Below are positions 20,138 to 25,928 of a DNA stretch of 25,928 nt, one piece after another. This DNA is from a virus: the IMG/VR virus record IMGVR_UViG_3300029915_000130, positions 1 through 25,928 of that record. One strand, written 5' to 3'. How positions within the stretch are numbered: position 1 is the stretch's first letter; every line of letters starts with the position of its first letter. The notes beneath the pieces were generated by a model. It was not told the DNA's origin. It ran no database searches and saw only the letters and a list, made by a program, of their open reading frames with translations. A program made the position numbers and the translations under genes.

Positions 20138-20893
20138 TTACTCGTGCAAGCCTTTGACCATCGCCAGGTATGCCGCCATGGCCGCGTCCGGGTTGGCTGC
20201 GTCAGCCTCGATATTGGCGACCACGGCGTTGAGGTCCAGCTTCACGGTATCCTTGAAGGCCGCGATGATCTTGGAAGCGTTCTCCAAGGCGCGCTGGCGG
20301 TCCGTGGTGAGTATTTCGAGGTCGCCGTTGCCCTTGCGCTTCACGCCGGCAAAAAGCGCCCTGGCGCCCTTGGAAAACTTGGACGTGTCGCGGGCGAACA
20401 CCCGCTCCGCGCCGTGGCCCTCGCACTCGGGGCAATCCTTGTTCGGATCCTTGCTGAACCAGTAATCGAGGCCGCCGGTGGCGTCGGGCATTGGCAACGT
20501 CGGGTCTTTGACCACGTTTCGCTCCCATTCCTTCATGGCCGCTTCGTACTCGTTGAGCTTCCAATGGTACAGGTGGCCGACCGACCAGCAATGGCGACAC
20601 GAGCCAACCTTGAGCCCTATCAGTTCGTTGGGATCCGCCGTCGCGATGTCCAGGAACATCGTCAGGGCGGTGGCCGCCGTGAAGGGCTCGGGAAGCTTGG
20701 CTGTCACTTCCTTCAGCAACTCGTCGCAACGCGTAGCAATCGAAGAGGTTGCCAGCAACGTGGAGCCGGCTGACCGACAAGCTGCGTCCGAAGTTGTGGA
20801 GGCTACGTTATGGCTCGCACGGTACGCCCGGCCCGGGTTGCGATCGACAACGTAGGCTCTGCAGAAAGCTTCCTGTTTAGCGGTGAGCGCCAT
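20138..20893 (-). CDS. Terminase small subunit
   Basis: A 251-residue protein. It opens 'ALTAKQEAFCRAYVVDRNPGRAYRASHN', the DNA-binding helix-turn-helix start typical of small terminase subunits ('LTxKQexFxxxYlxxxNxxxAxxxAG'). The central part has two Cys pairs, 'GSCRHCWSVGHLYHW' and 'DCPECEGHGAE', which probably bind zinc, as in a subgroup of phage small terminases. The C-terminal part is helical. It would recognise the packaging site and load the large subunit, and it is the first late gene. Its gene lies 3.4 kb upstream of the large subunit, separated by the lysis genes. Confidence 0.85.
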   Translation of the reverse strand: MALTAKQEAFCRAYVVDRNPGRAYRASHNVASTTSDAACRSAGSTLLATSSIATRCDELLKEVTAKLPEPFTAATALTMFLDIATADPNELIGLKVGSCRHCWSVGHLYHWKLNEYEAAMKEWERNVVKDPTLPMPDATGGLDYWFSKDPNKDCPECEGHGAERVFARDTSKFSKGARALFAGVKRKGNGDLEILTTDRQRALENASKIIAAFKDTVKLDLNAVVANIEADAANPDAAMAAYLAMVKGLHE

Positions 20894-20935
20894 GCGGATG
20901 GTGTCTCACAACCCGGATAGTCACGTCAAGCCAAC

Positions 20936-21279
20936 CCCCAGTATGAATTCGTACTGGGGCCCATACTGGGGGTCCATACTGGGGATTCTATATTCTCTTT
21001 AAGATCAACTACTTAACTAAATAAATCCCCAGTACCCCGGTACAAAACGCAAAATCGCCTCACGCGCATGGCGCACGCGCGTATATACGCACGCACACAC
21101 ACAGAGGGTTCGAGGGTACTGGGGGCACAGGGGGTACTGGGGATTTCGGTTGTCCACAATTGTTACGCTAAGGATTTCAATAGCTTAGCAACCCCCAGTA
21201 CGGCCCATTTCATACTGGGGGTCACAACTCCCCCACAACAGTTAGGCGTGACAATTCAAGCACTTAGCTTCCCCCAGTA
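20936..21279. repeat. Cluster of ten CCCCAGTA sites; candidate origin or multi-operator region
   Basis: This divergent intergenic region (20894-21349, no convincing gene) holds the word CCCCAGTA forward at 20936, 21027, 21193 and 21272. It appears reversed (TACTGGGG) at 20952, 20964, 20977, 21117, 21135 and 21213. The first two form a 24-base near-perfect inverted repeat centred on GAATTC. An AT-rich stretch (about 20985-21026) lies between the third reverse copy and the second forward copy. The word TTGTCCACAA at 21150, close to a DnaA box, occurs again in reverse at 21467. Repeated short words, an AT-rich tract and a DnaA-like word are the usual parts of an iteron origin. Operators of a regulator controlling both strands are the alternative. 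Confidence 0.7.
21071..21103. other. 33-base alternating purine/pyrimidine run
   Basis: Every base from 21071 to 21103 alternates purine and pyrimidine (GCGCACGCGCGTATATACGC and then repeated CA). Ten further alternating bases precede it in the other phase. Such tracts can adopt Z-DNA under negative supercoiling and unwind easily. It lies inside the CCCCAGTA cluster. Confidence 0.55.
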
Positions 21280-21286
21280 CCGGGGC

Positions 21287-21315
21287 TTGACGCCGGCTCA
21301 TTGAGCCCATATGGT
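21287..21315 (+). promoter_or_regulatory. Promoter P1 with GGCTCA-T-TGAGCC operator
   Basis: TTGACG (21287-21292), a 17-base spacer, then TATGGT (21310-21315) form a sigma70-type promoter for the early operon. The spacer contains the perfect palindrome GGCTCATTGAGCC (21295-21307), so a bound dimer would block RNA polymerase. One CCCCAGTA site (21272) lies just upstream. Similar units occur at 22684 and 24524. Confidence 0.75.
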
Positions 21316-21349
21316 GCCTTCACAACTTACCACAACTTATGGAGGCTTC

Positions 21350-21553
21350 ATGCCTGGTTACGAATTCCGCCAGCCACAAGTTACCACAACCCGGCACATG
21401 GCCACGGACGAGGACGCGAAGGGTCGGGCAGGTCGCCTGGCCAAGCGCCACAACTGCCCCGTGGAGTTGTGGACAACCGCCGGCGCCTATCTCACAACCG
21501 CACAACCCAGCCCCACGCACTTCCGCGGCTATCGCTTTGAGGCACGGACATGA
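21350..21553 (+). CDS. First early-operon protein, unknown function
   Basis: A 67-residue protein. The start MPGYEFRQPQVTTTRH at 21350 has GGAGG four bases upstream. An in-frame ATG at 21311 is unlikely because it lies within the -10 box of P1. The C-terminal part 'NCPVELWTTAGAYLTTAQPSPTHFRGYRFEART' looks folded. The stop overlaps the next ATG as ATGA. The coding DNA contains several CCACAAC words shared with the adjacent intergenic region. No family recognised. Confidence 0.65.
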   Translation: MPGYEFRQPQVTTTRHMATDEDAKGRAGRLAKRHNCPVELWTTAGAYLTTAQPSPTHFRGYRFEART

Positions 21554-21783
21554 GTCGGCTACGGGTCGTTCTCGCTGCGTGGGCCCTGGCCGGGACGGTT
21601 ATCGTCGCGAGCACCTTTGTGCAGCCGGCCCACCTAGACCGCACGACTGAGTCGCGGATCACCGCGGCGTGCGCCCAGATGGTCACGACAGGCTGGCTTG
21701 ACGAGTGGCGCTGTCGGGACAACGCTCGCCGCTACGTGCGCTGGTCGCAGACTGACCGCGCTAGAGCCCTGGTGCTGCCATGA
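21550..21783 (+). CDS. Small exported or membrane-anchored protein
   Basis: A 77-residue protein starting in an ATGA overlap. Residues 1-23 (MSRLRVVLAAWALAGTVIVAS) form a signal anchor or signal peptide. The rest has two Cys ('AACAQMVTTGWLDEWRCRDNARRYVRWS') that could form a disulphide in the periplasm. Small proteins of this kind in early regions may change the host envelope. Function unknown. Confidence 0.65.
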   Translation: MSRLRVVLAAWALAGTVIVASTFVQPAHLDRTTESRITAACAQMVTTGWLDEWRCRDNARRYVRWSQTDRARALVLP

Positions 21784-21956
21784 GCACAACCCTCGCCCAC
21801 TTGGCTAAAGCGTTGAAGGCGTGGGCTGTGCATGACGACGAATGCAGCCGTAACCAACTTTATTCGCCCGTCAATCACACCTGCACCTGTGGCCTCACCG
21901 CTCTGCAACAGCAACTCGCCGAGGAGTTGGCGAACCAACCCAAGGACCCCCAATGA
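21780..21956 (+). CDS. Small Cys-containing hypothetical protein
   Basis: A 58-residue protein (MSTTLAHLAKALKAWAVHDD...) overlapping both neighbours by four bases. It contains C-x12-C-x-C ('DECSRNQLYSPVNHTCTCGLTALQQQL') between two helices, which could be a small metal site. This motif, a helix followed by 'HxxxC...CTCGL', is seen in many phage early proteins. Function unknown. Confidence 0.65.
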   Translation: MSTTLAHLAKALKAWAVHDDECSRNQLYSPVNHTCTCGLTALQQQLAEELANQPKDPQ

Positions 21957-22504
21957 CAACCCTGAGAGAAGCGCTGGAGCTGACACTAGACGCCCTGGAT
22001 AGTTTCGGGCGCGAGGCCAATTGGGGCGCGTCTTGCCTATCCGCCGAAACGATCCGCAAGATCAACGAAGCGCCGTCCATCGCCGCCCAAGCCCTCGCCG
22101 ACAACCCCGTGGACGCGGATAAGCGGGAGAGGGTCGCGCAGATTATTGAGGATGAGGCTTGGCTACGGAGGTTGAGGCTGCCAGACAGGCTTGCGAAAAA
22201 GTGGGGCGAAGAGGACAAAAACGCCTGCATCGACCGCCTCCTCGACCGACTTCGCGCGCCTAGGGTGGATGAGGGGTGGGTGTTGGTTCCAAGGGAGCCG
22301 ACCGAGGCGATGATCGCGGCTTGCCTGAGCGCGCTGTCCGACTGGCGCAAAACCCTGGACGCAGATGAACGCATGTTGCGGCGCGACCCTGAGCGGCTCC
22401 AGCGAAACGGCAAGCCTTTCGAGGCGTCGGCTACATCCGAGGAAAAGGCAAGGTTGCGTTACCACGCCATGATCGCCGCGGCCCTCTTGGAGCCCAAGCC
22501 ATGA
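21953..22504 (+). CDS. Phage early protein with EGWVLVPREPTEAMIAA motif
   Basis: A 183-residue, mostly helical charged protein. The motif 'DEGWVLVPREPTEAMIAACLSAL' near residues 105-128 recurs in many unrelated phage and prophage proteins ('xGWxLVPxePTxeMxxA'), often joined to variable partners. The N-terminal half ('LREALELTLDALDSFGREANWGASCLSAETIRKINEA') probably forms a separate helical domain. No enzyme motif visible. It overlaps both neighbours by four bases. Confidence 0.7.
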   Translation: MTTLREALELTLDALDSFGREANWGASCLSAETIRKINEAPSIAAQALADNPVDADKRERVAQIIEDEAWLRRLRLPDRLAKKWGEEDKNACIDRLLDRLRAPRVDEGWVLVPREPTEAMIAACLSALSDWRKTLDADERMLRRDPERLQRNGKPFEASATSEEKARLRYHAMIAAALLEPKP

Positions 22505-22734
22505 CCACGAGCACCGAAACAACCTACGAGATCCGCAACGCCATCGGCCGCGTGGTCTACACCACGAGCGAGCCCGATCTGGTCTGGCGCTTCCTGGCGT
22601 CGGACCGCGCCCGAGGCCTTGGGCCGCTCACGCCCGTGGAGGTCACGCGGACGACAATCGAGCGCGTGCGTCGGCTGCGGCCGTTGACAAGGCGCATTGA
22701 GCCGGTACATTCGCACGCATCATTTGGAGGCTGA
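22501..22734 (+). CDS. Small hypothetical protein
   Basis: A 77-residue protein (MTTSTETTYEIRNAIGRVVYTTSEPDLVWRFLAS...). It starts in an ATGA overlap. It is probably a small alpha/beta domain with a basic second half. Its 3' part contains promoter P2 and the ribosome-binding site of the next gene. No family recognised. Confidence 0.6.
   Translation: MTTSTETTYEIRNAIGRVVYTTSEPDLVWRFLASDRARGLGPLTPVEVTRTTIERVRRLRPLTRRIEPVHSHASFGG
22684..22711 (+). promoter_or_regulatory. Promoter P2 with GGCGCA-T-TGAGCC operator
   Basis: A perfect TTGACA (22684-22689), a 16-base spacer and TACATT (22706-22711) form a promoter inside the 3' end of the preceding gene. The spacer carries GGCGCATTGAGCC (22691-22703), one base different from the P1 palindrome. 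It would start a transcript just before the gene at 22739. Confidence 0.7.
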
Positions 22735-22738
22735 GACT

Positions 22739-23038
22739 ATGGAACTTCCTAACGGTTGGGTGCGCTACGAGGGCGACGGCTGGCATGTCCTGGCGACGGG
22801 CGGCCCGGTGTTGGACTTGCTGCCGGGCGCCACGCCCCCGCACGAGCTGCCCGAGCCGCTACGGCGCGATATCTGTTGGATCAAGACTGATGGCGTCTGG
22901 TTCCTCGCCCCGGCCGGCGTGTCCATCCGCTTCCCCGTGCTAGGGGAGCCCCCGGTGGCGGCCCCTCCGCCAGCGGCGCCCAAGCCGCACGCCCCCAAAG
23001 CTAAGCCCACGGGCCCCCGACACCAAGGCGCAAGCTGA
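22739..23038 (+). CDS. Early protein with Pro/Ala-rich tail, zero-frame product
   Basis: A 99-residue protein starting MELPNGWVRYEGDGWHVLATGG at 22739. GGAGG lies upstream and promoter P2 lies 28 bases upstream. The first 75 residues look folded ('PEPLRRDICWIKTDGVWFLAPAGVSIRFPV'). The remainder is rich in Pro, Ala and Lys. The frame ends abruptly after TGPRHQGAS, while the +1 frame continues with a protein-like acidic tail to 23099 (see the next entry). An in-frame start further upstream exists but lies inside the preceding gene. Confidence 0.65.
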   Translation: MELPNGWVRYEGDGWHVLATGGPVLDLLPGATPPHELPEPLRRDICWIKTDGVWFLAPAGVSIRFPVLGEPPVAAPPPAAPKPHAPKAKPTGPRHQGAS

Positions 23039-23099
23039 ACAAGCCGCACATGTCCCGGGTTCCGAGGCCGACGAGCCCGACGCCCCTACCGGAGAGTGA
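23013..23099 (+). other. +1 frame extension of the preceding gene
   Basis: In the +1 frame the bases after 23012 encode 'DTKAQAEQAAHVPGSEADEP' and end with DAPTGE and a stop at 23097-23099, four bases before the next ATG. The composition (Ala, Glu, Asp, Pro; good codons) matches a natural tail for the Pro/Ala/Lys-rich region before it. The shift would occur at CCC-CGA (23015-23020). A Pro tRNA there could slip one base forward within a run of five C, next to a rare Arg codon. The joined product would have about 119 residues. Sequencing or natural indel in the C run is the other explanation. Confidence 0.5.
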
Positions 23100-23102
23100 C
23101 CC

Positions 23103-23285
23103 ATGGCCCTATTAAAGCTTGTCTTCCGCATGATCGACACCGAGACCGGCGAAACTGTCGTTCCCGAGAGTCAGACGCTCGTGACGGTTCCGGCCGGTGC
23201 GCCCCGCGGGTACGTCAAGGAATTGTTCGAATCGGCGGGTATCATCGTTCAGAAGTTTTGCTTCAACGCCTTCGAAAGCCGATAG
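23103..23285 (+). CDS. Small hypothetical protein
   Basis: A 60-residue protein (MALLKLVFRMIDTETGETVV...) with GGAGAG six bases upstream. Strand-rich first half and a helix with 'APRGYVKELFESAGIIVQKF' near the end. It looks like a small alpha/beta fold. No family recognised. Confidence 0.65.
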   Translation: MALLKLVFRMIDTETGETVVPESQTLVTVPAGAPRGYVKELFESAGIIVQKFCFNAFESR

Positions 23286-23289
23286 CCCC

Positions 23290-23475
23290 ATGGTCCGCGA
23301 GTTGAGCGACTTAGTTGAGGCGGTCCAACGCCACTTGGCGACCGCGCCCGTCTATCGCAACGCGGTAGGCTCCCCGGGGTCTATCGTGCGCCAGAAGCAA
23401 GACGAGGCGATCGCCAGCGAGGACTGCTTGTACCGCGCGCTGCGCGCGGCGGAGAGGGAGCTAGGCACGCCATGA
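23290..23475 (+). CDS. Small helical hypothetical protein
   Basis: A 61-residue protein starting MVRELSDLVEAVQRHLATAP four bases after the previous stop. It is two helices with 'QKQDEAIASEDCLYRALRAAERELG'. Its stop overlaps the next ATG as ATGA. The frame is open upstream but there it runs inside the previous gene. No family recognised. Confidence 0.6.
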   Translation: MVRELSDLVEAVQRHLATAPVYRNAVGSPGSIVRQKQDEAIASEDCLYRALRAAERELGTP

Positions 23476-23753
23476 TCCTTTCGGAGCGTAAGCGCTACAC
23501 CGACATTGGCTACCATTTTGCGGAAGGGGTCTTCCGGAGCGTGGGGGCCTTTTGCCTCGGCCTCCTGGCCTGGGCTTTCCTTGTGCACGAGGCGCACAAC
23601 CGCTTCGGTTGGGGCGCGGACAACTCCGACCCGCCTCACGGCTACAGCGGCATGGCGGTCCTGACGGATCACCTGACCGGCTGTCAGTACCTCAACGCCG
23701 CGAGCCTGACGCCCCGCCTGGACGTCGCCGGCCGTCAAGTGTGCAAGCCATGA
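23472..23753 (+). CDS. Membrane protein with DUF6440-like C-terminus
   Basis: A 93-residue protein. Residues 15-38 (HFAEGVFRSVGAFCLGLLAWAFL) form one membrane segment. The C-terminal half reads 'NSDPPHGYSGMAVLTDHLTGCQYLNAASLTPRLDVAGRQV', matching the DUF6440 pattern ('xDxxTGvqYLxxxxGxLTPrlDxxG'), a small domain common in phages and with no known function. The fusion to a membrane helix suggests the domain is displayed at the inner membrane. Confidence 0.75.
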   Translation: MILSERKRYTDIGYHFAEGVFRSVGAFCLGLLAWAFLVHEAHNRFGWGADNSDPPHGYSGMAVLTDHLTGCQYLNAASLTPRLDVAGRQVCKP

Positions 23754-23920
23754 GGCAGACGTGGCCCACCCCCATTGTCCAGGCCCTCACGCGGCACGTC
23801 GAAGCTGCCCTTGCCGACGCCGCACGCTGGTCGCAACAGCCCCACGGCGGGGGCCTAGCCGCCCTACGCGAGCGTGACGCCGCGGCCCTGCGTGCGATGG
23901 CCAGGGAGCGCTTGGCGTGA
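23750..23920 (+). CDS. Small helical hypothetical protein
   Basis: A 56-residue protein (MRQTWPTPIVQALTRHVEAAL...) in four-base overlaps with both neighbours. It is Ala/Arg-rich and almost wholly helical. No family recognised. Confidence 0.6.
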   Translation: MRQTWPTPIVQALTRHVEAALADAARWSQQPHGGGLAALRERDAAALRAMARERLA

Positions 23921-24246
23921 GGCTACTTGACCCCTTTGGTGAATGGAACGCCCTTGCCCGCGACTCGCGCGGTATGCCGCCTTCCATACTCGCGCAGGAC
24001 GTTGAGCGGCTGCTGGCGCCAAGTGCGTGGTTACGGGCCCGGGCCGAACGGTTCTGGCGGGAAGACCTCAAGAGCGCCCTGGCGCTTCGGCTACGCTCCA
24101 CGCTGCAGCCGGTGGCCACGCATGAGGGCTTCTATCACGGCGTGCGGCTGATCTACCTGCAGGCGTTGCTCAACGGCAAGACGCCGTGGGCGGCCAGGCG
24201 CGACGGGCTGCAGGTGATTCTCATGATCCCGAGGGCTACACAATGA
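23917..24246 (+). CDS. Hypothetical early protein
   Basis: A 109-residue protein starting at GTG 23917 in a GTGA overlap. It is basic, with 'WLRARAERFWREDLKSALALRLRSTL' and 'HGVRLIYLQALLNGKTPWAARRDGLQVILM'. This suggests a helical protein that might touch nucleic acid. No family recognised. The stop overlaps the following ATG. Confidence 0.65.
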   Translation: MRLLDPFGEWNALARDSRGMPPSILAQDVERLLAPSAWLRARAERFWREDLKSALALRLRSTLQPVATHEGFYHGVRLIYLQALLNGKTPWAARRDGLQVILMIPRATQ

Positions 24247-24371
24247 AAGACGGCTGCTATCTGATCATGGGCGCCGAGGGCGTCCGTCGCATGACGAAGC
24301 GGTATCCCGGCCTGGCGCGCGATGAGATCGACGTCTTCGTCAAGCTGACTGTGGAGCACGTGCAGGTATGA
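24243..24371 (+). CDS. Very small hypothetical protein
   Basis: A 42-residue protein (MKDGCYLIMGAEGVRRMTKR...) between two four-base overlaps. The tight coupling on both sides is the main evidence that it is expressed. No family recognised. Confidence 0.55.
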   Translation: MKDGCYLIMGAEGVRRMTKRYPGLARDEIDVFVKLTVEHVQV

Positions 24372-24541
24372 CCGCCGCTGAGTTCACCGGCGCCCTTGAG
24401 CGCCTGGGCTGGTCGACCAGTGAGGCGGCCAAGCGCCTGGCGAGCGCGCCCCGCTCCGTGCGCCAGTGGAAGGCCGGCTCGCGCAAGGTGAGCGGGCCCG
24501 TGGTGGCGCTGCTACAAGGGCACTTGACCCCGGCTCAATGA
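24368..24541 (+). CDS. Small helix-turn-helix regulator
   Basis: A 57-residue protein: MTAAEFTGALERLGWSTSEAAKRLASAPRSVRQWKAG and so on. The segment 'LGWSTSEAAKRLASAPRSVRQWKAGSRKVSGPVVALL' follows the helix-turn-helix plan of small phage and antitoxin-type regulators ('LGWsqxeaArrLgvsxrtVrrWxxGxxxvpgpvaxLL'). The recognition helix would be around APRSVRQWKAG. The last codons and stop form the -35 box and operator of promoter P3. It is the best candidate in this window to bind GGCTCA-N-TGAGCC, which is inference. Confidence 0.75.
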   Translation: MTAAEFTGALERLGWSTSEAAKRLASAPRSVRQWKAGSRKVSGPVVALLQGHLTPAQ

Positions 24542-24552
24542 GCCACTAGAGG
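24524..24552 (+). promoter_or_regulatory. Promoter P3 with GGCTCA-A-TGAGCC operator
   Basis: TTGACC (24524-24529), a 17-base spacer holding the palindrome GGCTCAATGAGCC (24532-24544), and a weak -10 candidate TAGAGG (24547-24552). It overlaps the end of the helix-turn-helix gene and stands 29 bases before the gene at 24581. From the C before the -35 box through the palindrome it matches P1 at 20 of 22 positions. Confidence 0.6.
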
Positions 24553-24580
24553 TAGGCCATCAGCTACAGGAGATTGAGCG

Positions 24581-24784
24581 ATGGCCCGGCCCGGCGACAT
24601 TCGAGTTAACTCAACGGACTACGACGGCGACGTCGTGATCGAACAATACGCCCACTGGAATTGCGGTCTGACCTGGGCCGTCCCGGCATGGGAAGAGCGG
24701 GGAGACGGCGACTTGGCCGGACCGTTCGTCAATCGCGCCGAGGCAGAAGACGCCTTGATCCGATACGAAGCCATCTGGGCCTAG
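24581..24784 (+). CDS. Small hypothetical protein
   Basis: A 67-residue acidic protein (MARPGDIRVNSTDYDGDVVIEQYAHWNCGL...) with an AGGAGA ribosome-binding site. The C-terminal 'AGPFVNRAEAEDALIRYEAIW' is a helix. It is first after promoter P3. No family recognised. Confidence 0.65.
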   Translation: MARPGDIRVNSTDYDGDVVIEQYAHWNCGLTWAVPAWEERGDGDLAGPFVNRAEAEDALIRYEAIWA

Positions 24785-24819
24785 CCCGTCAACACCCACC
24801 ACAAAGGACACCCAACGCC

Positions 24820-25428
24820 ATGACCACGTGGATTGAAGACGCCAACGGAAACAAATGCTCTGTCGAGTATTTCGGCTCGGCCGAGGACTCCCAGAAGGCG
24901 CTCGACAGCCTGAAGGGCTGCCGCAACTGTGTTAACTGCTCGGACTGCTCGGACTGCTCGGGCTGCTCGGGCTGCTCGTACTGCTCGGACTGCTCGGGCT
25001 GCCGCAACTGTGTTAACTGCTCGTACTGCTCGTTCTGCTCGGACTGCTCGTACTGCTCGGGCTGCTCGGACTGCTCGGGCTGCTCGTACTGCTCGTACTG
25101 CTCGGCATTGAAAGACACGAAGGGCGGCTTCGTGCCCCTGGTTGTTCCGGTGATCGCGGACATCCACCGCGTGATCTACGAAGCGGCGTCCGCACCTGAG
25201 GCCCTTCACATGTCCGATTGGCATAGCTGCGGAACGACACATTGCCGTGCCGGGTGGGCCGTTCATCTGGCCGGCGAAGAGGGCTACGCGCTCGAACACT
25301 TCCACGGGACCGCCCTGGCCGCCCAACTGATATACGACGCCAGCGGACACCCGATCAGCCCCGTTCGGTTCTTCGACAGCAACGAGGACGCGCTCGCCGA
25401 CATGAAGCGCCTAGCGGGGGCCGTATGA
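24820..25428 (+). CDS. Cys-triplet repeat protein fused to a phage C-terminal domain
   Basis: A 202-residue protein. After a short head (MTTWIEDANGNKCSVEYFGS...) residues 34-96 are 21 tandem Cys-x-x triplets, mostly CSD, CSG and CSY, with CRN-CVN twice. The C-terminal domain has 'SDWHSCGTTHCRAGWAVHLAGEEGYALEHFHG' and 'ISPVRFFDSNEDALADMKRLAG', a pattern I recognise from many uncharacterised phage proteins. One Cys every third residue would put all Cys on one face of a solenoid or three-residue helix, suited to metal binding. No enzyme function can be assigned. AAAGGA lies eleven bases before the ATG. Confidence 0.75.
   Translation: MTTWIEDANGNKCSVEYFGSAEDSQKALDSLKGCRNCVNCSDCSDCSGCSGCSYCSDCSGCRNCVNCSYCSFCSDCSYCSGCSDCSGCSYCSYCSALKDTKGGFVPLVVPVIADIHRVIYEAASAPEALHMSDWHSCGTTHCRAGWAVHLAGEEGYALEHFHGTALAAQLIYDASGHPISPVRFFDSNEDALADMKRLAGAV
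24919..25107 (+). repeat. 9-bp tandem repeat coding for Cys-Ser-x
   Basis: Twenty-one units of TGC TCG NNC (four of them CRN or CVN variants; the last ends in GCA). Ser is always TCG, and the variable codon is GAC, GGC, TAC or TTC. Thus only one or two bases per unit vary. The near identity indicates recent expansion by slippage or recombination. Confidence 0.85.
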
Positions 25429-25472
25429 AGGCCGCCGCCCTTTAAGCCGCTTAACCAAAAGGAACCACAACC

Positions 25473-25928
25473 ATGAAAACGCACCTAATCACCGCTGACC
25501 AACTCACGGACGGCACGTACACCGGCCCCGTCGATCTGACGGCCTTCGACGGGCATATTGAAATTGCCGCACGACTCGGGACCGTCAAGTTCACGGGGTG
25601 GCTCCGCGCTGCCGGCGACATTCGCGCCAAAGCGGGCTCGGGGATCAAAGCGGGCTCGGGGATCAAAGCGGGCTCGGGGATCGAAGCGGGCTCGGGGATC
25701 GAAGCGGGCTGGGGGATCGAAGCGGGCTCGGGGATCGAAGCGGGCTTGGGGATCGAAGCGGGCTCGGGGATCAAAGCGGGCTCGGGGATCAAAGCGGGCT
25801 CGGGGATCAAAGCGGGCTGGGGGATCGAAGCGGGCTGGGGGATCGAAGCGGGCTCGGGGATCGAAGCGGGCTCGGGGATCGAAGCGGGCTTGGGGATCGA
25901 AGCGGGCTCGGGGATCGAAGCGGGCTTT
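25473..25928 (+). CDS. Hexapeptide-repeat protein, 3' end outside the window
   Basis: The frame opens at ATG 25473 (AAGGA upstream) and stays open to the window end (152 codons). The head (MKTHLITADQLTDGTYTGPV...) is followed from residue 57 by sixteen six-residue repeats of the form G-I-(E/K)-A-G-(S/W/L/F). In the phase I-E-A-G-S-G each fits the left-handed beta-helix hexapeptide rule ([LIV]-[GAED]-x2-[STAV]-x). This suggests a triangular solenoid of at least five turns. The partner strand also stays open here because of the repeat, but this strand has the start signal and the operon context. Function unknown; a structural or binding role is likely. Confidence 0.75.
   Translation, partial: MKTHLITADQLTDGTYTGPVDLTAFDGHIEIAARLGTVKFTGWLRAAGDIRAKAGSGIKAGSGIKAGSGIEAGSGIEAGWGIEAGSGIEAGLGIEAGSGIKAGSGIKAGSGIKAGWGIEAGWGIEAGSGIEAGSGIEAGLGIEAGSGIEAGF
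25641..25928 (+). repeat. 18-bp tandem repeat, sixteen complete units
   Basis: Units of GGGATCRAAGCGGGCTNG (last unit ending TTT) run in perfect register to the window edge, so more copies may follow. Variation is confined to the third codon (AAA or GAA) and the sixth codon (TCG, TGG, TTG or TTT). Blocks of units recur, which points to unequal recombination. Confidence 0.9.

Follow-up and report, generated by a model that had tools for sequence, protein, structure and literature searches.

Three putative early promoters in a phage contig share a spacer palindrome resembling Aca operators

Three promoters in a viral contig of 25,928 nucleotides (IMGVR_UViG_3300029915_000130; the whole stretch is referred to as the window) carry one palindrome, GGCKCA-W-TGAGCC, inside the spacer between the -35 and -10 boxes. 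What recognises this palindrome, and what would the three sites control? The core promoters all lie on the forward strand: P1 at 21287–21315 (TTGACG-17-TATGGT), P2 at 22684–22711 (TTGACA-16-TACATT) and P3 at 24524–24552 (TTGACC-17-TAGAGG, with a weak -10 box). Their boxes were read in the sequence, and P1 and P2 were also found by a sigma-70 consensus scan. The predicted operators, motif matches with no strand assigned, are O1 (GGCTCATTGAGCC, 21295–21307, a perfect 6-1-6 dyad), O2 (GGCGCATTGAGCC, 22691–22703, one half-site mismatch) and O3 (GGCTCAATGAGCC, 24532–24544, a perfect dyad), the last of which includes the stop codon of a helix-turn-helix (HTH) gene.

The initial annotation had described TTGAC boxes with a shared palindrome at 21287, 22684 and 24524, and an HTH gene (24368–24541) ending within the third copy; all of these coordinates are confirmed. 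It had also noted 20 identical positions out of 22 between P1 and P3, and in 20894–25928 no other non-tandem pair of 22-mers is that similar. Its judgement that the first two -10 boxes are good agrees with the sigma-70 scan, which covered both strands of 20800–25928 and returned two promoters, P1 and P2 (shuffled sequences average 0.8); P3 is missed because its -10 box is poor. At all three promoters exactly 2 nt separate the palindrome from a -10 box that starts with TA, and the distance to the -35 box differs by 1 nt among them. Downstream follow a Shine-Dalgarno sequence and then an ATG, at 21350, 22739 and 24581, respectively, and the transcripts would have 5' leaders of about 20–28 nt. 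The promoters share one orientation and none lies within the late genes. P2 is inside the 3' end of ORF 22501–22734. The region is presumed early from its position and gene content.

One explanation would be a chance resemblance among unrelated sequences, and indeed 13-mer matches with up to three mismatches occur in the window at chance level. However, only the three sites match with zero or one mismatch, where 0.038 are expected in the early region, and none of 2000 second-order Markov simulations contained at least three. The stricter arrangement, in which TTGAC directly precedes a perfect 6-1-6 palindrome and TA follows it after two bases, has two occurrences in the real region, and 0 of 2000 simulations contained one. 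Together with the recurrence in other phages described below, this excludes chance in practice. Two further readings were rejected. An intrinsic terminator is not called at any of the three sites and there is no T-run. Spacer operators of the MerR type have a -35 to -10 spacing of 19–20 bp, and the spacers here (17, 16 and 17) are outside that length.

Each promoter precedes a cassette of forward-strand genes. The P1 cassette (21350–22734) consists of five small genes with end-to-start overlaps (21350–21553, 21550–21783, 21780–21956, 21953–22504 and 22501–22734), among which only 21953–22504 matches a viral family, one of no assigned function. In the P2 cassette (22739–24541), genes 22739–23038, 23103–23285, 23290–23475 and 23472–23753 are followed by 23750–23920, 23917–24246 and 24243–24371, with the HTH gene last. 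The P3 cassette (24581–25928) contains 24581–24784, 24820–25428 and a repeat-rich ORF running from 25473 off the contig end. Scans of the small genes against Pfam, NCBIfam and PHROGs gave no named family, only a few without function, and a search for relatives with the early proteins 24581–24784 and 21350–21553 returned nothing.

Phages control anti-CRISPR genes with anti-CRISPR-associated (Aca) repressors, and the aca gene is usually the last of its operon, downstream of the acr genes. This close precedent, the Aca repressors of acr-aca operons, was absent from the initial annotation. The window palindrome is one half-site base away from two proven Aca operators, those of Aca10 (ATACGCTCATTGAGCGTAT) and Aca1 (GGCACAATGTGCC): the half-site GGCTCA matches five of the six bases of CGCTCA in Aca10 and five of six of GGCACA in Aca1, and is identical to neither. 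The core of O1, GCTCATTGAGC, is also the core of the Aca10 operator. By our own estimate, a match within one half-site base of any of about ten Aca operators would arise by chance in about 5% of cases.

The position of the sites is likewise shared. The Aca10 site of the acrIC7-acrIC6-aca10 promoter in Pseudomonas citronellolis sits within the core promoter TTGCAA-N16-TATTCT (PMC9410881), as the dyads do in the window, and Aca sites have been predicted in the core promoter in every bacterial family analysed, with the promoters repressed by their own Aca (PMC9410906). Aca10 is about the size of the window HTH protein and has the same predicted fold, and both genes close their operon or cassette. 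However, the outer operator bases differ (C..G in Aca10, G..C here), Aca10 has one promoter where the window has three, and its minimal site is 19 bp whereas the symmetry in the window covers only 13 bp. The Aca1 operator of Pseudomonas phages such as DMS3, GGCACA-N-TGTGCC, differs from the window palindrome by one base per half-site and also lies in the -35/-10 spacer, in operons where small genes are followed by an HTH gene, as in the window. The window HTH protein is, however, no close homologue of Aca1, and in DMS3 a single promoter carries two dyads.

The HTH protein (57 aa, 24368–24541, forward strand) stands where an aca gene usually would, closing the P2 cassette. Its single-sequence fold was poor (pLDDT 68.7), and an alignment-based AF2 model (pLDDT 89.6) was used instead. 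In a Foldseek search with this model Aca2 ranked first and Aca10 (7xi5) aligned with TM scores of 0.83/0.83 and an rmsd of 0.9; all E-values were above 0.03 and the fold is common to many repressors, P22 c2 being matched as well. In sequence, Aca10 was the second of four PDB matches, below significance (E 0.19). The window protein has R29, Q33 and R39 at the positions of Aca10 R34, Q38 and R44, while the contact residues Q22 and Q37 are changed to T17 and R32. The profile of a five-member HTH family, which includes the Aca1 homologue of contig L075 (see below), matched Aca3 (9e-5), Aca1 (4e-4) and Aca10 (0.05), as well as Aca7 and Aca2. We call the protein Aca-like, short of assigning it to a named Aca family given the E-value of 0.19 to Aca10. 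The motif was not found near the HTH genes of the closest cultured relatives (Bradyrhizobium phage ppBeUSDA76-2 and Pan3), nor a comparable operator near the HTH relatives carried by L076–L079.

The same promoter architecture exists in other phages. A degenerate scan of a viral contig collection with TTGAC-N2,3-GGCNCANTGNGCC-NN-TA, a motif used before its meaning was known, retrieved only two other contigs, L074 and L075. In both, the spacer of an early promoter divergent from the terminase gene contains GGCACATTGTGCC, which is also the palindrome at the acr-aca1 promoter of the DMS3 record. In L075 the operon at that promoter encodes an Aca1 homologue (E 2.2e-11), whose best phage matches are HTH genes from DMS3 and other Pseudomonas phages, providing an internal positive control. 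Contig L019 has GGCACAATGTGCC beside the terminase, and the operon there includes an HTH gene from the family represented in the window. A scan with GGCTCAWTGAGCC-NN-TANNNT gave 12 matches, and the sole early promoter among them, in L104, adjoins a terminase-like gene and contains GGCTCATTGAGCC, identical to O1, in the register of DMS3 (-35 box, 4 nt, dyad, -10 box).

The other matches were set aside. L105 resembles a terminator and the remainder of that scan lie in long open frames, or in a short one (L108). From the exact-pattern scan, L004 and L006 fall in coding genes and L005 and L007 show nothing promoter-like, and all four were treated as chance, as were L084–L089 from the Aca1-type scan, which are mostly in coding frames.

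Among the other phages, L074, L075 and L019 have the Aca1 type of palindrome and L104 the identical one. L008, the nearest relative by terminase, has no copy at zero or one mismatch and a different early region, and in Magia and IFTN9, cultured relatives by large terminase, the motif is absent and the CI/Cro region ordinary. Megablast against cultured phages gave no match. The exact operator 13-mers, searched as words in the literature, gave no phage paper, since the published Aca sites appear within longer oligonucleotides or have a different half-site.

These comparisons bear on two other explanations. Mobile promoter cassettes have been described for T4-type phages, and on that model the promoters here could have spread by recombination, the dyad acting as an RNA stem-loop and not as a protein site. 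P2 and P3 are at gene ends, where read-through RNA would form 5-bp hairpins. However, the dyad is upstream of the expected start sites, the terminator calls are lacking and other phages keep its promoter position with a different half-site, which favours protein recognition; the stem-loop explanation is highly improbable. Alternatively, the palindrome could be bound by a host transcription factor whose site was adopted by the phage, and the palindrome type does recur in phages with terminase genes from different families. Against this, 385 genomes from the class of Parvibaculum, which may not be the host's, have no promoter-like match and seven in coding sequence, while the four matches in 398 genomes from its phylum, with the same reservation, are all non-palindromic and none is promoter-like. 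The known binders of such palindromes are phage-encoded Aca proteins, and we regard a host factor as very unlikely.

A CI-like immunity repressor deserves more weight. As the contig is partial, ending at 25928, such a repressor could be encoded outside it, with the 57-aa HTH protein being Cro-like or unrelated; no CI-like or integrase gene is among the proteins examined. Spacer operators in early promoters are typical of immunity repressors too, and the P22 c2 match fits. Moreover, several 13-bp operators and stoperators are scattered over the genomes of Cluster A mycobacteriophages, mostly in the direction of transcription and some in early promoters, with a repressor-site specificity that drifts among related phages (PMC6550527). 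However, those sites are asymmetric and mostly outside promoters, while the window sites are dyads in promoters; the palindrome is also near proven Aca operators, and in L075 this promoter type accompanies an Aca1 homologue. An immunity repressor therefore appears unlikely.

We suggest instead that the sites are probably operators of an Aca-like autorepressor, three and not one, and that about 15 small genes under them are anti-defence candidates. The initial annotation's proposal of one small early repressor for three transcripts remains the best reading of the sequence, from the recurrence of the sites, their near-identity to Aca operators and the matching HTH protein. Its suggestion that the repressor controls its own downstream genes needs correction in the wiring: the HTH gene closes the P2 cassette, and autoregulation would therefore act through O2 and not through the O3 that this gene overlaps. 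On infection, host RNA polymerase would transcribe the three cassettes simultaneously from P1–P3. The 57-residue protein made from the P2 cassette would then dimerise, bind GGCTCA-W-TGAGCC and shut off its own promoter, P2, along with P1 and P3. Since the dyad fills the -35/-10 spacer, we propose that a dimer bound there keeps RNA polymerase out. Both the binding by this protein and the repression of P1–P3 are inferred. Such wiring would match an acr-aca operon, with three promoters in place of one, and by analogy the other 15 or so small proteins may be anti-defence or host-takeover factors.

A comparable regulon has been described in the rudivirus SIRV2, where one regulatory promoter sequence is common to many early small genes, which are thought to be under one small Aca protein, Aca8, with repression inferred; the shared sequence served to predict anti-defence genes (PMC11065993). 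However, SIRV2 is an archaeal virus with archaeal promoters and mostly single-gene transcription units. The window may represent an Aca family that is new and has an operator type to itself, GGCTCA-W-TGAGCC, governing a three-operon early regulon of anti-CRISPR or other anti-defence proteins in a bacterial myophage.

Anti-CRISPR genes are seldom alike and are usually found through their neighbours. Should the operator prove to be an Aca site, about 15 small genes would be flagged as anti-defence candidates by a single promoter motif, and the bacterial Aca scheme would widen from a single operon to a regulon with several promoters. If the family is indeed new, these genes, most without known relatives, would form an unexplored anti-defence set, and the operator could be used to find such regulons elsewhere, as with L104. 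The degenerate motif is already a workable search tool, since it retrieved Aca1-type operators and, with them, the Aca1 homologue of L075.

The minus strand of this IMG/VR virus record (25,928 bases) carries genes for tail sheath, major head, portal and terminase, while small genes occupy the plus strand from 21.3 kb to the end. The initial annotation placed three promoters with a palindromic operator at 21287 (P1), 22684 (P2) and 24524 (P3), and these positions are confirmed exactly on the sequence. By sequence inspection, the plus-strand promoters read TTGACG-CC-GGCTCATTGAGCC-CA-TATGGT in P1, TTGACA-A-GGCGCATTGAGCC-GG-TACATT in P2 and TTGACC-CC-GGCTCAATGAGCC-AC-TAGAGG in P3. Two bases separate the end of the dyad from the -10 box in all three. 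Downstream of each comes a GGAG-type ribosome site and then an ATG, at 21350, 22739 and 24581, respectively.

In the early region, three dyads with at most one mismatch are observed versus 0.038 expected, and two perfect dyads lie between TTGAC and TA versus none in 2000 Markov simulations. When both strands were scanned over 5.1 kb for the sigma-70 consensus, two promoters came out, P1 and P2; P3 is missed because of its TAGAGG. The 13-mer alone, with three mismatches allowed, is at chance level in the window, so it is the close copies, and where they lie, that carry the claim.

The exact pattern gave only matches judged to be chance in the viral collection, but a degenerate form, TTGAC-N2,3-GGCNCANTGNGCC-NN-TA, with one half-site position freed, matched two contigs in the whole collection, L074 and L075. 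In each of them, a promoter directed away from a terminase gene contains GGCACATTGTGCC in its spacer (TTGACA-17-TATCGT, then ATG, in L074; TTGACT-17-TACTCT in L075). A third phage contig, L019, obtained independently via its terminase, has TTGCCA-ACC-GGCACAATGTGCC-GCATAG at the corresponding place. A further scan found the window's own palindrome in contig L104, as TTGATA-ACTA-GGCTCATTGAGCC-TATATC, flanked on one side by minus-strand genes, one of them terminase-like, and on the other by two small plus-strand genes; the contig's GC content is 64%, like that of the window. This early promoter and its downstream small genes (L104:7340-7943) occupy the end of the contig, which is 7.9 kb long. By Pfam, the terminase small subunit is Terminase_2 in the window and L019 and Sf6-type in L074, with no Pfam match for it in L075 or L104; the large terminase is common to L019 and L075. 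The element is thus a recurring feature of early promoters and not peculiar to one phage lineage.

Published operators of anti-CRISPR-associated (Aca) repressors indicate the type of system involved. For Aca10 the minimal site is ATACGCTCATTGAGCGTAT, inside TTGCAA-N16-TATTCT, and the Aca1 site, which contains GGCACACTGTGCC and GGCACAATGTGCC, is unbound by Aca10 (PMC9410881); small protein and half-site changes are therefore expected between families. The Aca1-site palindrome is that of L074, L075 and L019, and GCTCATTGAGC is common to the Aca10 site and the window operator. From these comparisons the window seems to represent a separate family, near Aca10 in the operator core. In the DMS3 record, GGCACATTGTGCC and GGCACAATGTGCC precede the annotated anti-CRISPR gene and the HTH gene. 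In L075 the HTH protein is homologous to Aca1 (E 2.2e-11 versus the crystal structure), and the phage sequences it matches best are HTH genes from Pseudomonas phages, for example DMS3. Applied before its meaning was recognised, the motif thus led to an aca1-type operon, which serves as an internal positive control. The segment L075:3493-4123 encodes, under the Aca1-type promoter, an uncharacterised protein some 100 residues long and then the Aca1 homologue, and is a strong candidate for an acr-aca1 operon. By our own estimate, the probability of matching one of about ten Aca operators to within one base per half-site by chance is roughly 5%. The Aca reading therefore depends on operator, promoter position, gene order, fold and other phages all converging, not on the operator alone.

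The HTH gene (24368-24541, 57 residues) closes the P2 cassette. From an alignment (A1) with four relatives from other loci, a four-helix HTH is confidently predicted (pLDDT 89.6). Its best solved-structure matches include Aca2 (rank 1) and Aca10 (TM 0.83 both ways, rmsd 0.9), with E-values that are weak, as is usual for a domain of this size. A profile of the family, with the L075 Aca1 homologue among its members, matches Aca3, Aca1, Aca7, Aca10 and Aca2 by sequence. Aca10 residues R34, Q38 and R44 are kept as R29, Q33 and R39, while Q22 and Q37 are changed; R44 is the most critical DNA contact in Aca10 (PMC9410881). The L019 HTH belongs to the same family, through the HTH of another locus, L079 (L019-L079 E 1e-12, L079-window 8e-10), and L019 pairs it with an Aca1-type operator.

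Upon phage entry, strong host-type promoters would fire; the HTH protein encoded in the P2 cassette would build up, bind the dyads and block RNA polymerase at P1, P2 and P3. This repression logic is reported across the bacterial Aca families, in each case with a single inverted repeat located in the core promoter (PMC9410906); what sets the window apart is how many promoters it has. For control of several promoters by one Aca, the closest precedent is the predicted SIRV2 Aca8 regulon (PMC11065993), and a literature search of incomplete coverage gave no bacteriophage Aca regulon with several operons. Alternatively, a CI-type repressor may be encoded outside the window, which is a genome fragment and may lack such a gene or further operator copies. 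In the nearest cultured relatives of the HTH protein, Bradyrhizobium phage ppBeUSDA76-2 and Pseudanabaena phage Pan3, no nearby palindrome of this kind was seen, and such HTH proteins may therefore also use other sites. The Pan3 layout resembles the window (terminase small subunit, divergent small gene, HTH gene), and its HTH protein is 56% identical to that of L079. The divergent small protein and HTH pair adjoining the Pan3 terminase small subunit (L117:434-1094, ON968454) is a candidate for an acr-aca-like pair in a cyanobacterial phage.

Neither Pfam nor NCBIfam gives a named family for the window's small genes, and matches to PHROGs, all of unknown function, are limited to a few of them (21953-22504, 23472-23753, 24820-25428). 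In the last, a 9-base repeat present nineteen times (24935-25105) encodes a Cys-Ser-rich stretch (CSDCSGCSGC). An 18-base repeat, AAGCGGGCTCGGGGATCG, present sixteen and a half times and reading IKAGSG/IEAGSG, fills the contig end (25630-25926), probably the point at which the assembly broke. A 350-bp, lower-GC stretch separating the terminase gene from P1 (20936-21286) holds all ten window copies of CCCCAGTA/TACTGGGG, the last abutting the P1 -35 box, as well as an AT-rich patch near 20990 and, at 21150, a DnaA-box-like TTGTCCACA. It is probably a replication origin with iterons; a matching cluster in another phage contig, L008, has four GCCAGTACGTACTGGC with two DnaA-box consensus matches.
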